Positions 8,771 to 46,593 of a stretch of DNA of 64,000 nucleotides are shown here, piece by piece. The notes under the pieces are model-generated. The model was not told the DNA's origin, searched no databases, and saw only the letters and a list, made by a program, of their open reading frames with translations. Location of the stretch: assembly GCF_023502425.1 (NCBI RefSeq), contig NZ_JAMFMA010000003.1:434001-498000 (forward strand), written 5' to 3'. Within the stretch, counting starts at the first letter, position 1; every line of letters begins with the position of its first letter. A program made the translations under genes and the position numbers. Source of the stretch: Flagellimonas spongiicola (GTDB taxonomy: Bacteria; Bacteroidota; Bacteroidia; Flavobacteriales; Flavobacteriaceae).

Positions 8771-8872
8771 TTGTTATCAAGAAAGGTGGAGGGAATAGAC
8801 CCGATGAAACCTTAGCAACCCTCGACTTCGAGAAGGTGCTAAATTCTACCCAACCAAATGGGAAGGATAACC
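8771..8872 (+). ncRNA. SAM-I (S-box) riboswitch
   Basis: The conserved aptamer core is present: AAGGTGGAGGGA, CCCGATGAAACC, TAGCAACC and AAGGTGCTAAATTC, in order. Helix P1 is GTTATC (8773-8778) with GATAAC (8866-8871); P3 holds the CTCG-ACTT-CGAG stem-loop and P4 is CCCA...TGGG. It would sense S-adenosylmethionine and switch off the methionine synthase and metF genes that follow. It lies in the 345-base gap before 8974. Downstream, a short hairpin with a T-run (8879-8898) is the probable expression platform. Confidence 0.95.
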
Positions 8873-8878
8873 AAGCAT

Positions 8879-26384: not shown

Positions 26385-26569
26385 CGGTTTTAACTGTTTG
26401 TGAATTGCCGGAGGTTTTAAAATGATTCCATTGAAAATTCCCAACAAAACATGTGTTTCGGCTATGGAAATTCAAAAAAAAGGACGCATAAACAAAAAAT
26501 CGAAAAAAATTCGGGCATTAGGATGGCATTTCATATGAATGTCTATCTTAGCCTCAGATTTTATCAAAA

Positions 26570-26641
26570 ATGACAAAAACATATTTCTGGAACGGTTTTT
26601 ATTTCTACTTCTTTTTTAAGAGAAGCGAGGGACTGTTCTAG
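26570..26641 (+). CDS. Aromatic-rich leader peptide of the phe/tyr operon (attenuator)
   Basis: A 23-residue ORF, ATG 26570 to TAG 26641, too short for routine gene calling. Eleven residues are aromatic: seven Phe, three Tyr and one Trp, including the run FYFYFFF at residues 10-16. It functions as a sensor of charged tRNA-Phe and tRNA-Tyr: stalling at the run leaves 26629-26637 free to pair downstream and prevent the terminator at 26668-26698. The same logic is known for pheL of enterobacteria; homology to that peptide is not implied. The 3' end of the ORF encodes the antiterminator strand itself. Confidence 0.85.
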   Translation: MTKTYFWNGFYFYFFFKRSEGLF

Positions 26642-26664
26642 ATATATATAACGTATAACAACAG
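26629..26664 (+). promoter_or_regulatory. Antiterminator strand of the phe/tyr attenuator
   Basis: GGGACT (26629-26634), inside the last leader codons, is complementary to AGTCCC (26669-26674), the 5' arm of the terminator. Alternatively, GGGA pairs with TCCC (26671-26674) and CTGTT (26633-26637) with AACAG (26660-26664), a 9-bp helix with a 6-base bulge. Both would exclude the terminator. Confidence 0.65.
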
Positions 26665-26667
26665 ATT

Positions 26668-26698
26668 AAGTCCCGGTGTAGATCGGGACTTTTTTTTT
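26668..26698 (+). terminator. Attenuator terminator before pheA
   Basis: AAGTCCCG (26668-26675), an 8-base loop, CGGGACTT (26684-26691) and a run of nine T (26690-26698). It ends three bases before the pheA ATG, so it must be bypassed for any expression of the operon from the upstream promoter. Confidence 0.9.
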
Positions 26699-26701
26699 AC
26701 A

Positions 26702-27532
26702 ATGGATTTAAGAGTCGCCATACAAGGTATCAAGGGTTCAAACCATCATCAGGTAGCTATGGACTATTTTGGAAAGGACATTAAACTGGTAGAATGTTTG
26801 TCCTTTGATACCATGATCGAACATATTTGCAATGGGACTGCCGATAAGGGAATCATGGCCATAGAGAATTCGATTGCCGGTTCTATTATTCCCAATTACA
26901 ACTTGGTTTACCATAATAACATCCACATTATAGGTGAACATTATTTGAGCATCCATCATAATTTGATGGCCTTGAAAGGGGTGGCGATAGAACAAATTGA
27001 AGAAGTGCGTTCCCATCCCATGGCGTTGTTGCAGTGCAAGAAGTTTTTGAAGCAGTACCCAAAAATCAAACTGGTGGAAGATGTGGATACCGCTGAAACC
27101 GCAAGAAAAATTCAGGAGGGACAATTAAAGACCATAGCTGCAATTGCCCCTAAAGTAGCCGCAACATTGTATGATTTAAATATCATTGCTCCGGAAATCC
27201 AAACCATAAAGAACAACGCGACCCGCTTTATAATTCTCAAAAAGGTAAATAAAGTATTGCCCAAAGAAGAAATCAATAAGGCTTCTTTGCGATTTATTAC
27301 CGATCACAAAAGAGGGAGTTTGGCAACGGTATTGAATGTGATGAGTGATTGCAATTTGAATTTGACGAAGATTCAATCTCTACCTGTTATAGAAACGCCT
27401 TGGAAGTATGCATTTTTTGTTGATGTGACTTTTGATGAATACCAAAACTTTGAAAAGGCCAAATCTTTATTGGAAATAATGTCCGAGGACTTTAGGTTAC
27501 TTGGCGAATACAAAAATGCCCTGTTGCCATGA
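26702..27532 (+). CDS. pheA: Prephenate dehydratase
   Basis: 276 residues. The catalytic prephenate dehydratase domain covers about 1-180, ending in the NNATRF motif with the catalytic Thr-Arg-Phe; an ACT domain follows. It converts prephenate to phenylpyruvate. The ACT motif usually ESRP, which in relatives contributes to phenylalanine feedback, reads QSLP (residues 225-228). There is no chorismate mutase domain; that activity is fused to the DAHP synthase. It is preceded by a leader-peptide attenuator and overlaps the aminotransferase start by ATGA. Confidence 0.95.
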   Translation: MDLRVAIQGIKGSNHHQVAMDYFGKDIKLVECLSFDTMIEHICNGTADKGIMAIENSIAGSIIPNYNLVYHNNIHIIGEHYLSIHHNLMALKGVAIEQIEEVRSHPMALLQCKKFLKQYPKIKLVEDVDTAETARKIQEGQLKTIAAIAPKVAATLYDLNIIAPEIQTIKNNATRFIILKKVNKVLPKEEINKASLRFITDHKRGSLATVLNVMSDCNLNLTKIQSLPVIETPWKYAFFVDVTFDEYQNFEKAKSLLEIMSEDFRLLGEYKNALLP

Positions 27533-28671
27533 TCACAGCAGATAGATTAAAAACCGTTCAAGAATACTACTTCTCTAGAAAACTGAGAGAGGTAAGAGGA
27601 TTGATCAATGAAGGTAAACCCATAATCAACATGGGGATTGGTAGTCCAGATTTGGCGCCATCACCAGAGGTTTTGGAAACCTTGAAAGACGCCATTACTG
27701 ACATTGGTGCGCATCAATACCAGAGTTATCAAGGACTTCCAGAGTTGCGCGCTGCTATTTCTCAGTTTTACAAGGACAAATTTGCGGTGGAAACCGATGC
27801 CAGTTCGGAGATTTTACCACTAATGGGTTCCAAAGAGGGTATCATGCATATTGGGATGGCTTTTCTAAATGAAGGCGATGAGGTGTTGTTGCCAAATCCT
27901 GGATACCCAACCTATACTTCGGTTAGTAAATTGATTGGAGCAATACCTCGCACTTATGAACTGAAGGAAGAGAATGGATGGTTTCCGGATTTGCAGGAAT
28001 TGGAGCAAACGGACTTATCAAAAGTTAAGGTGATGTGGGTAAGCTATCCACACATGCCTACAGGAGCAACGGCCAGTAAAGAAAAATTGACACAATTGGT
28101 GGATTTTGCCAGAAAACATGGGATTCTATTGGTAAATGACAATCCATACAGCTTTGTTCTGTCTCAAAACCCAACCAGTATCTTATCCATTTCAGGTGCA
28201 AAAGATTGTGCCTTGGAGCTGAATAGTTTGAGCAAAACCTTCAACATGGCCGGCTGGCGTGTGGGTATGGTTCTAGGGAATAAGGATCATATAAATGCAA
28301 TTCTTAAGGTGAAAAGTAATATGGATTCAGGAATGTTCTATGGAATCCAAAAGGGTGCAATTGCTGCATTGAAAAGTGGAAAGGAGTGGTTCAACGCTTT
28401 AGATGAAGTCTATACCAAAAGAAGGGAGCTCATGTTTCAACTTGCAGATAAATTGGGTTGCAGCTATGATCGAAATGCGGTTGGCATGTTTGTTTGGTGC
28501 AAACTACCTAAGGGATCAGTAGGTTCGGAAAAATTTATTGATAAGGTATTGGAAGACAAGCATATTTTCATTGCTCCAGGCACCATATTTGGAAGTAATG
28601 GCGAAGGGTATATTCGTTTTTCCCTTTGTGTCAAAGAAGAAAAAATCAAGGAAGCCATAGAAAGATTTTAA
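27529..28671 (+). CDS. PLP-dependent aminotransferase (aromatic/aspartate type)
   Basis: 380 residues, fold type I class I aminotransferase. PLP lysine in NSLSKTFNMAGWRVG; the substrate-binding Arg is in the C-terminal YIRFSLC. Its position between pheA and tyrA suggests it transaminates phenylpyruvate and 4-hydroxyphenylpyruvate to Phe and Tyr. The family also includes LL-diaminopimelate and aspartate aminotransferases, so specificity is inferred from context. Overlaps pheA by four bases and precedes tyrA by one. Confidence 0.9.
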   Translation: MITADRLKTVQEYYFSRKLREVRGLINEGKPIINMGIGSPDLAPSPEVLETLKDAITDIGAHQYQSYQGLPELRAAISQFYKDKFAVETDASSEILPLMGSKEGIMHIGMAFLNEGDEVLLPNPGYPTYTSVSKLIGAIPRTYELKEENGWFPDLQELEQTDLSKVKVMWVSYPHMPTGATASKEKLTQLVDFARKHGILLVNDNPYSFVLSQNPTSILSISGAKDCALELNSLSKTFNMAGWRVGMVLGNKDHINAILKVKSNMDSGMFYGIQKGAIAALKSGKEWFNALDEVYTKRRELMFQLADKLGCSYDRNAVGMFVWCKLPKGSVGSEKFIDKVLEDKHIFIAPGTIFGSNGEGYIRFSLCVKEEKIKEAIERF

Positions 28672-28672
28672 A

Positions 28673-29533
28673 ATGAATTTAATTGTAATAGGAATAGGGC
28701 TTATTGGCGGTTCTTTTGCGAAGGATGTGAAAAAAATTCATCCTGACACCCAAATTACCGGAATTGACAAAAGCGAGGAGCATTTGGAAGAAGCTTTGCA
28801 ATTGGGTCTCATAGATCAAAAAGGGGATTATACTTCTTTGGCCACAGCCGATATGGTGTTTGTGAGTATTCCAGTAAATGCACTGGTCAAGGAGTTACCC
28901 AAGATACTGGATTCAGTTGGGGATGATACGGTGGTGATTGATACCGGCTCAACCAAAGAATTAATTTGTGCAGCCGTTGAAAACCATCCAAACAGAAGAA
29001 ATTACCTAGCATGCCACCCTATTGCAGGTACTGAGTTTTCGGGCCCCAGTGCGGCGATCAATGGATTGTACCATGGAAAGACCAACATTATATGTGAGGT
29101 TGAAAAGACTGCGTTCAAGCTTCAAGAGCGGGCGTTGGAGCTGTTCCAAGGCATGAACATGCGTATCCGCTACATGAATCCTTCGGCACATGACAAACAT
29201 ATCGCCTATGTCTCCCATTTATCACATATCAGCTCATTTATGTTGGGAAAGACAGTTATAGAAAAAGAAAAGAATGAGCGTGATATTTTTGACCTCGCTG
29301 GCAGTGGATTTGAAAGTACGGTCCGATTGGCAAAGAGCTCACCGGATATGTGGACACCCATTTTTGAACAGAACAAGGAGAATGTGGTTGAGTCCTTGGA
29401 AGAGTACATCCAGAATCTAGAAACTTTCAAGCAATTGCTATTGGATAATGCCTATGAAAATGTTCATCAAGAAATGAATAACACCAACAGAATAAAACAA
29501 ATATTAAAAGGAATACCCCTAACAAAAAGTTAG
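28673..29533 (+). CDS. tyrA: Prephenate dehydrogenase
   Basis: 286 residues. N-terminal NAD-binding motif GIGLIGGSFAKD at residues 6-17, then the conserved CHPIAGTEFSGP catalytic segment and SHLSHISSF with the prephenate-binding histidine. It converts prephenate to 4-hydroxyphenylpyruvate for tyrosine. No chorismate mutase or ACT domain is fused. Third gene of the operon; the attenuator upstream should couple its expression to Phe and Tyr supply. Confidence 0.94.
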   Translation: MNLIVIGIGLIGGSFAKDVKKIHPDTQITGIDKSEEHLEEALQLGLIDQKGDYTSLATADMVFVSIPVNALVKELPKILDSVGDDTVVIDTGSTKELICAAVENHPNRRNYLACHPIAGTEFSGPSAAINGLYHGKTNIICEVEKTAFKLQERALELFQGMNMRIRYMNPSAHDKHIAYVSHLSHISSFMLGKTVIEKEKNERDIFDLAGSGFESTVRLAKSSPDMWTPIFEQNKENVVESLEEYIQNLETFKQLLLDNAYENVHQEMNNTNRIKQILKGIPLTKS

Positions 29534-29541
29534 AATCAATT

Positions 29542-30624
29542 ATGGAAAACAAAAAGGAAATGAGAAAGTGGTTGGATGATATGGGATTACCTCATCCATT
29601 GGTGATAGCCGGACCCTGCAGTGCTGAAACGGAAGAGCAGGTGTTGAAAATTGCCCATGAACTAAAAGACACCGATGTAAACTACTACCGCGCAGGAATC
29701 TGGAAGCCTAGAACACGACCAGGTAATTTTGAAGGGGTAGGTGCCATTGGCTTAAAGTGGTTGCAAAAAGTGAAGGAAGAAACAGGCTTGAAGACCGCTA
29801 CGGAGGTTGCCAATAGAGCCCATGTAGATTTGGCGTTGGAACATGATGTTGATCTTTTATGGATTGGCGCTAGATCCACAGTAAGTCCATTTATTGTTCA
29901 GGAAATAGCAGATGCACTTGAAGGAACGGATAAAATTGTCTTGATCAAAAACCCGGTGAATCCAGATTTATCACTTTGGTTAGGTGCTGTAGAGCGCTTG
30001 TATTCCGCGGATATCAAAAAACTAGGGGTTATCCATAGAGGTTTCTCTACTTATGAAAAGACCAAATACCGAAATATTCCAGAATGGCAAATGGCTATTG
30101 AGTTACAATCCAAATTTCCTGATTTGCCAATTATCAATGACCCAAGTCATATAACGGGTAAACGAGACATGATATTTGATGTATCCCAGACTGCATTGGA
30201 TCTAAATTTTGATGGTTTGATGATTGAAACACACCATGATCCAGATAATGCATGGTCAGATGCCGCGCAGCAGGTAACTCCAGATACGTTGGTTCAAATC
30301 ATGAAGGACTTGAGAATACGTAAAGAAACTGATGTGGAAGCCGAGTACAATAGCAAACTGAGCAATCTACGTGCGCAAATAGACGTAATTGACAATCAAT
30401 TGATCGATATGTTAGGTAAACGCATGAAAGTATCCGATGGGATTGGCGAATTGAAAAAGCAAAAGAATGTTGCCGTACTTCAGACCAACCGTTGGAATGC
30501 CATATTAGGTAAGATGATATTGGAGGGCGAATCACAAGGGCTTAGTGAAGAGTTTGTTTTGCGTATGTTCAAGGCAATCCACCAAGAGTCCATTAATCAC
30601 CAAGAGAAGATTATCAACGCATAA
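29542..30624 (+). CDS. DAHP synthase fused to AroQ chorismate mutase
   Basis: 360 residues. The first about 265 are a DAHP synthase of the beta (KDO8P-like) class (GPCSAETEEQ, RPGNFEGVGAIGLKW, ATEVAN). The C-terminal about 90 residues (from NLRAQIDVIDNQLIDMLGKRM) are an AroQ-type helical chorismate mutase, which is often an allosteric sensor of prephenate or chorismate in such fusions. It thus supplies both the first step of the shikimate pathway and prephenate for pheA/tyrA. It is the last gene, followed by a strong terminator. Confidence 0.94.
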   Translation: MENKKEMRKWLDDMGLPHPLVIAGPCSAETEEQVLKIAHELKDTDVNYYRAGIWKPRTRPGNFEGVGAIGLKWLQKVKEETGLKTATEVANRAHVDLALEHDVDLLWIGARSTVSPFIVQEIADALEGTDKIVLIKNPVNPDLSLWLGAVERLYSADIKKLGVIHRGFSTYEKTKYRNIPEWQMAIELQSKFPDLPIINDPSHITGKRDMIFDVSQTALDLNFDGLMIETHHDPDNAWSDAAQQVTPDTLVQIMKDLRIRKETDVEAEYNSKLSNLRAQIDVIDNQLIDMLGKRMKVSDGIGELKKQKNVAVLQTNRWNAILGKMILEGESQGLSEEFVLRMFKAIHQESINHQEKIINA

Positions 30625-46357: not shown

Positions 46358-46593
46358 AATTAAACTAGTTGGTTATCCTACTCGTATGGCTTTTCGGTTC
46401 CGCCCCGTTTGTGGTTTCTGGTCTCCAGATTTATTTTAGAAAGTAATGTAGTTGTGCAAAAAAAATTGAAGTGATTTGACGAATGACCAATTTGAGTTGA
46501 TGGATAGGGTATTTTGAAGTCATGTTAACCTAAAAAAGAATAATCTTGAATAGGTTACCCTCGGAATTTGTTGGCCATTTTATGAGCTAAAGG

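Follow-up and report, generated by a model that had tools for sequence, protein, structure and literature searches.

A probable phenylalanine/tyrosine attenuator upstream of pheA in Flagellimonas spongiicola and its relatives in Flavobacteriaceae

In a 64,000-nt stretch of Flagellimonas spongiicola DNA (positions 434,001 to 498,000 of contig NZ_JAMFMA010000003.1, hereafter the window, in which all coordinates are given), the DNA preceding pheA very probably encodes a ribosome-mediated transcription attenuator of the phenylalanine/tyrosine (Phe/Tyr) operon. A short open reading frame (ORF) rich in Phe and Tyr codons lies here together with four RNA arms that can form alternative helices. These elements, their conservation, the matched changes of the arms between lineages and the spacing of the parts are observed. 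A preliminary description of this DNA had interpreted the region as a Phe/Tyr leader-peptide attenuator, and this interpretation is supported by the co-occurrence of the elements in the family and by the covariation of the arms between lineages.

The leader ORF (26570..26641, on the plus strand, as are all elements and genes of the operon) comprises 23 codons, with the translation MTKTYFWNGFYFYFFFKRSEGLF. It contains seven Phe, three Tyr and one tryptophan (Trp) codons, including the control codons FYFYFFF at codons 10-16 (26597..26617), exactly as first described and at the same coordinates. The last codons and the stop codon of the ORF constitute arm 2 (26629..26642), where GGGACT (26629-26634) can pair with AGTCCC (26669-26674) of arm 3 (26668..26677). 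Arm 3, in turn, is the 5' arm of an intrinsic terminator formed by arms 3 and 4 (26668..26698), with a 10-bp stem (26668-26691) and a T-run that reaches 26698, three bases ahead of the pheA ATG (26702). Both hexamers and the position of the T-run had been reported before and are confirmed here. Moreover, the minimum-energy fold of the leader RNA joins arm 2 to a further segment, arm 1 (26586..26599, codons 6-10 of the ORF), which also pairs with arm 2 according to the pair counts and the swap test given below. This protector arm, overlooked in the preliminary description, completes the textbook four-arm design.

The duplex energies in the window are -18.2 kcal/mol for arms 1:2 and -12.8 kcal/mol for arms 2:3, both helices competing for arm 2, while the 2:3 antiterminator and the terminator compete with each other for arm 3. 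From this arrangement we infer the start of the transcript, the stalling, the read-through and the signal. A ribosome would translate the leader peptide as RNA polymerase makes the leader, about 140 nt in length. When the transfer RNAs (tRNA-Phe and tRNA-Tyr) are charged, the ribosome would reach the stop codon and cover arm 2, the 3:4 terminator would form, and transcription would end before pheA. When Phe or Tyr is short, the ribosome would stall in FYFYFFF, covering arm 1 and leaving arm 2 free; the free arm 2 would then take arm 3 into the antiterminator, and transcription would read through. In the absence of translation, 1:2 would form and protect the terminator. In computed folds without arm 4, the RNA not covered by a ribosome halted at codon 10 or 16 adopts the 2:3 antiterminator.

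The fold of the leader RNA (-39.9 kcal/mol) is far more stable than those of 200 shuffled sequences (-22.3 +/- 2.9, none so low; z-score -6.1). The window holds two short ORFs with at least seven aromatic codons in ten, against a mean of 0.55 and a maximum of 4 in 60 dinucleotide shuffles. The combination of an aromatic-rich ORF, a terminator and a complementary arm of 6 nt is found in the whole window at the pheA leader alone, and in none of the 60 dinucleotide shuffles. A simple terminator scan on its own yields no excess over chance in a 5-kb stretch (four found, 4.4 expected).

The family-wide analysis shows that the elements occur together. Among 249 family genomes searched, 226 had a match to pheA, and loci were drawn from the best 150 of these 226; the resulting set of upstream DNA consists of 147 loci from relatives and that of the window, 148 in total, with G015 and G048 left out as lying near contig starts. 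An ORF with at least six aromatic codons in ten lies upstream of pheA in 147 of the 148 loci, and an intrinsic terminator between the leader ORF and pheA was found in 147 by the scan and in the remaining one by eye. In one genome (G013, locus L314) the leader and the terminator are located about half a kilobase further upstream, making the aromatic leader present in 148/148. Thus the joint presence of aromatic-rich ORF, antiterminator and terminator before pheA, which the preliminary description had named as a check of its reading, is found across the family loci. At L314, repeated units with hairpins, spanning about half a kilobase, part pheA from the leader, which seems intact.

Public relatives, some of whose genomes are also in the family set, give a similar picture: 79 of 80 have an ORF with at least seven aromatic codons in ten before pheA, and for the remaining one (L188) just 155 bases are available upstream of the gene. 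The closest named relatives of the pheA product belong to Allomuricauda, Flagellimonas and Muricauda records, the best protein identity being 89%. Furthermore, 15 stretches with matches to our leader model were inspected, 12 of them being pheA leaders and three plain terminators. Among these, 11 additional matches (L317-L327), in genomes whose pheA sites had previously been unexamined, directly precede a pheA frame (translations by eye). Three model matches in relatives that do not stand before pheA (L315, L316, L328) were rejected as leaders, being gene-end terminators.

The aromatic run is the core of the leader. Each of its last four codons is aromatic in 146 or 147 of the 147 loci used for the arm tests; Phe and Tyr both occur within the ten codons up to the run end in all 147 leaders, and Trp also does in 89. 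The spacing is constant as well. In 132/147 loci the run ends 9-11 nt ahead of the point where pairing in arm 2 begins, and the terminator starts 41-65 nt past the run in the whole set. A ribosome whose A site holds the last codon of the run extends about 9 nt further (the toeprint distance), and hence, given the 9-11 nt spacing, arm 2 remains free whichever codon of the run the stall occurs at, while a ribosome one or two codons past the run begins to cover it. The stop codon lies at least 18 nt past the run in 136 of the 147 loci, and 3-12 nt past it in 11.

Covariation of the complementary arms had been named as another check, and arms 2 and 3 indeed change together between lineages, according to both a swap test and anchored pair counts. 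The arms of the same locus have a 2:3 pairing score of 16.9, compared to 14.07 +/- 0.21 for arms exchanged between loci (147 loci, 200 swaps, highest 14.67). Pairs were counted in 141 of the 147 loci, anchored by a motif (L027, L075, L078, L125, L148 and L149 were dropped); the motif demands purines on the arm 2 side and pyrimidines on the arm 3 side, which favours pairing, though not the Watson-Crick counts. Five of the six core pairs are standard in 140-141 of the 141 loci, and the outermost one in 120. At the variable central position (G/A opposite C/U) 134 of the 141 loci have a Watson-Crick pair, against a mean of 71 in shuffles (highest of 1000: 92). The matched cores observed are GGGAC/GTCCC, GAGAC/GTCTC, AGGAC/GTCCT and GGGAT/ATCCC. 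The anchored counting replaced an alignment of 147 loci in which arm 2 was one base off-register between two big lineages, and which had poor 2:3 counts (from 35 to 144 of about 147, depending on the position).

The pairing of arms 1 and 2 is supported in a similar way. Its duplex energy is -14.9 for own arms and -11.0 +/- 0.24 for swapped ones (40 swaps, lowest -11.4), with a gain in every group, the smallest being in the Y-V type (-13.79 versus -13.13, best swap -13.46). In the 43-row alignment of the window's lineage, 74.3% of the 1:2 cells are paired, as opposed to 45-60% when slid; the respective values for the terminator and the antiterminator are 95.7% and 94.4%. Cells with a two-sided change number 30 against 17.6 in shuffles, and both this count and the covariation score exceed all 500 shuffles. 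When leaders are folded without the terminator, at least six of twelve arm-2 bases pair with the run or the sequence upstream of it in 146/147 cases.

Several observations weigh against the attenuator interpretation. Inside lineages the 2:3 signal is faint or absent: the arms are nearly invariant within clade 1 (-12.52 for own arms, -12.23 for swapped ones, best swap -12.51), the Y-V type gives -9.84 versus -9.78 (best swap -9.85), and the 2:3 covariation in the 43 rows is matched by 50 of 500 shuffles. For arms 1:2, the number of pairs with a two-sided change does not exceed that in shuffles (6 against 5.4; 220/500). In the fully transcribed leader RNA, which includes arm 4, the terminator has the advantage over 2:3 in stability, and therefore the switch must be kinetic, with timing decisive, as is assumed for classical attenuators. 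Finally, the preliminary description had extended the antiterminator by a second helix, CTGTT (26633-26637) with AACAG (26660-26664). Both segments are present in the window, but the helix is not conserved, as one of this type is no commoner in relatives than in the reversed-spacer control (36 versus 40 of 144 loci). Since the first two bases of CTGTT are shared with GGGACT, both helices cannot form in full.

An explanation of a different kind is a small hydrophobic protein, encoded by the ORF and functional in its own right, with the hairpin terminating a small transcript in the ordinary way. Strong conservation of the peptide inside the window's clade speaks for it; outside the aromatic run, however, this conservation tracks RNA pairing. 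In particular, at the third positions of codons 7 (Trp/Phe/Tyr) and 23 (Phe/Leu), alignment columns 82-133, GC, UG, UA, GU or CG is found in 31/43 rows, so that part of the peptide seems to be shaped by RNA pairing. Moreover, in the second large lineage the peptide ends differently, and the codons of that end pair with the arm 1 of the same lineage (e.g. in L094); between lineages, arm 2 tracks the terminator. We therefore regard a small protein as extremely unlikely. The region could also be a 5' element that senses a metabolite or a protein (a riboswitch, a T-box or a target of an RNA-binding protein) and contains the ORF by chance, an option we consider very unlikely. Structured 5' elements with no known signal have been reported in Flavobacteriaceae (PMC9723704). 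Here, however, no Rfam family reaches its cut-off, and the most constant features of the region are the aromatic run and its distance to arm 2. The T-box family of Rfam has no covariance-model match listed at the leader at the gathering threshold or at expectation values (E) up to 10, and neither does Bacteroid-trp (RF01692).

Common ancestry with the gammaproteobacterial pheA leader (Rfam RF01859, Phe_leader) is a separate question. Among sub-threshold Rfam matches RF01859 ranks best and extends over the whole element, but with 28.4 bits (E 0.0058 for 281 bases) it falls short of the gathering score of 55 bits, which is exceeded in none of 60 family genomes. All 60, on the other hand, have sub-threshold matches, and the F. 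spongiicola genome scores better (36.1 bits) elsewhere, on contig 1; thus the score seems to reflect U-rich sequence plus a terminator, and homology to RF01859 was rejected. Besides, in several loci the arms diverge even among families within the class, and we give shared descent almost no credence. As an analogous system, the enterobacterial pheL-pheA attenuator likewise has a Phe-rich leader ORF and alternative antiterminator and terminator helices before pheA, the choice between them being mediated by the ribosome. It differs from the Flagellimonas one in that the latter's operon adds tyrA and a 3-deoxy-D-arabino-heptulosonate 7-phosphate (DAHP) synthase, and its leader is Tyr-rich as well as Phe-rich. 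A further difference, apart from the failure of the RF01859 model, concerns the Shine-Dalgarno sequence, an AGGA-like motif being found in just one of the 147 flavobacterial leaders.

Translation of these leaders appears to start in another way. A is found at position -3 of the leader start in 125/147 loci and at position -6 in 96/147, and in F. johnsoniae A at both positions was measured to be a positive determinant (PMC6847099). The motif TAnnTT[TA]G is present at most 60 nt upstream of the leader ATG in 137/147 loci versus 33/596 control windows. We take it to be the -7 box consensus of the Bacteroidota type; in the window the putative promoter box, which the preliminary description had also overlooked, is TATCTTAG (TAnnTTnG, 26544..26551). 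In 43 aligned loci its A, T, T and G are invariant, and the first T nearly so. In 24 of the 147 family loci the -7 box ends just 10 nt before the leader ATG, and with such a gap the leader messenger RNA may have nearly no 5' untranslated part. Classical attenuation requires a ribosome close behind RNA polymerase, and hence the leader could serve to test coupling directly in bacteria that initiate without Shine-Dalgarno pairing. If the attenuator interpretation is true, the first ribosome and RNA polymerase must keep pace with each other here, which would make the leader a ready-made probe of transcription-translation coupling.

Outside the family, 42 pheA loci with DNA were considered, and 18 of them were chosen for a leader-like ORF, so this test speaks of the arms and not of frequency. 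The same attenuator logic is seen before pheA in 17 of the 42, often with different arms, and the terminator lies 43-67 nt past the run in 17 of the 18 chosen. In these 17 loci the 2:3 score of own arms is 18.9, compared to 14.0 +/- 0.77 for swapped ones (highest of 500: 16.4). Many arms are unlike those of the window (cores ACCGCT, AAGCCTC, GTTCTC), several keep a TCCCG core, and the peptides differ throughout, save for the aromatic run. In the locus L266, from another family of the class, two aromatic-rich runs precede pheA, each followed by what by eye is a terminator-like hairpin, suggesting attenuators in tandem; at the distance from the run fixed in the script, no terminator was found there.

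No such leader was found upstream of pheA in L272-L280, L241, L242, L246, L259 and L260; in some leaderless loci pheA may not be the first gene, and the leader could then lie elsewhere. Among the members of the order with 0.6-Mb genomes that keep pheA (L251-L257), a genome size that suggests endosymbionts, six have fewer than seven aromatic codons in ten, and L253 has seven and no terminator. The trait of a pheA leader is thus widespread, not universal. Opinion among us is evenly balanced on a broader generalization, namely that pheA is controlled by Phe/Tyr attenuators with four arms both in Flavobacteriaceae and in many further families of its class and phylum, the peptides and often the arms being replaced between families while logic and spacing are kept, and that the leaders lack Shine-Dalgarno sequences and lie close behind the promoter.

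Parts of this picture have been reported earlier. In F. psychrophilum and other genera, pheA and hisG were described as preceded by structured 5' elements, and strong clues to leader-peptide attenuation were noted for amino-acid operons of F. psychrophilum (PMC9723704); the section dealing with the pheA element gives no anatomy, peptide, arms or covariation. Bacteroid-trp (RF01692), a Bacteroidetes motif (PMC2864571), has been likened to the E. coli trp leader and is conserved before trp in F. psychrophilum (PMC6414381), but it belongs to a different operon and does not match the pheA leader. In B. thetaiotaomicron, long 5' untranslated regions contain leader-peptide-like short ORFs, compared by the authors with attenuation leader peptides; the example given precedes a gene for a hypothetical protein, and the passage presenting it does not name pheA (PMC7366714). 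No account of the anatomy of the pheA leader in flavobacteria was found in the literature searched, which covers subscription journals thinly. The comparative study of Lopatovskaya et al. (2010) reportedly may include Bacteroidetes. Thus a pheA 5' element and leader-peptide attenuation have already been stated for F. psychrophilum, and what is new is a well-documented member of the classical attenuator class: a picture down to single base pairs, drawn from 148 loci, of amino-acid attenuation within a family for which it had been mentioned and its anatomy was not found in that literature.

The downstream genes are pheA, encoding prephenate dehydratase (26702..27532; Pfam PF00800, with an ACT domain match under the Pfam cut-off), a class I/II aminotransferase gene (27529..28671; PF00155), tyrA, encoding prephenate dehydrogenase (28673..29533; PF02153 and PF20463), and a gene for a fusion of DAHP synthase and chorismate mutase (29542..30624; PF00793 and PF01817). 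This operon synthesizes Phe and Tyr, which fits a leader run of codons for the operon's own products, and attenuation is its probable mode of control.

As for other copies in the same genome, the model R1 gives nine matches at E up to 0.5. The sole one listed is the leader (E 4.7e-24), the other eight being weaker than approximately 0.008. A pattern of Phe/Tyr runs matches 30 times (9 + 21), and its reversed control 37 times, so the run pattern alone is not enriched. Inspection of frames shorter than 90 codons at 20 of the 30 pattern loci (the remaining ten include the pheA leader itself) revealed none that is leader-like and one terminator call (L285, in an 84-codon frame). A putative hisG leader (L281; contig 1 near 1165057, minus strand), with the peptide MRNRNTHHHFYPCPQAR (translated by eye), is followed by a terminator-like hairpin and then hisG. 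It differs from the pheA leader in its histidine control codons, and looks like a second classical leader in this genome. Other RNA elements of the window matched in Rfam are an S-adenosylmethionine (SAM) riboswitch at 8771-8873 on the plus strand and a DUF805 RNA at 46371-46433 on the minus strand.
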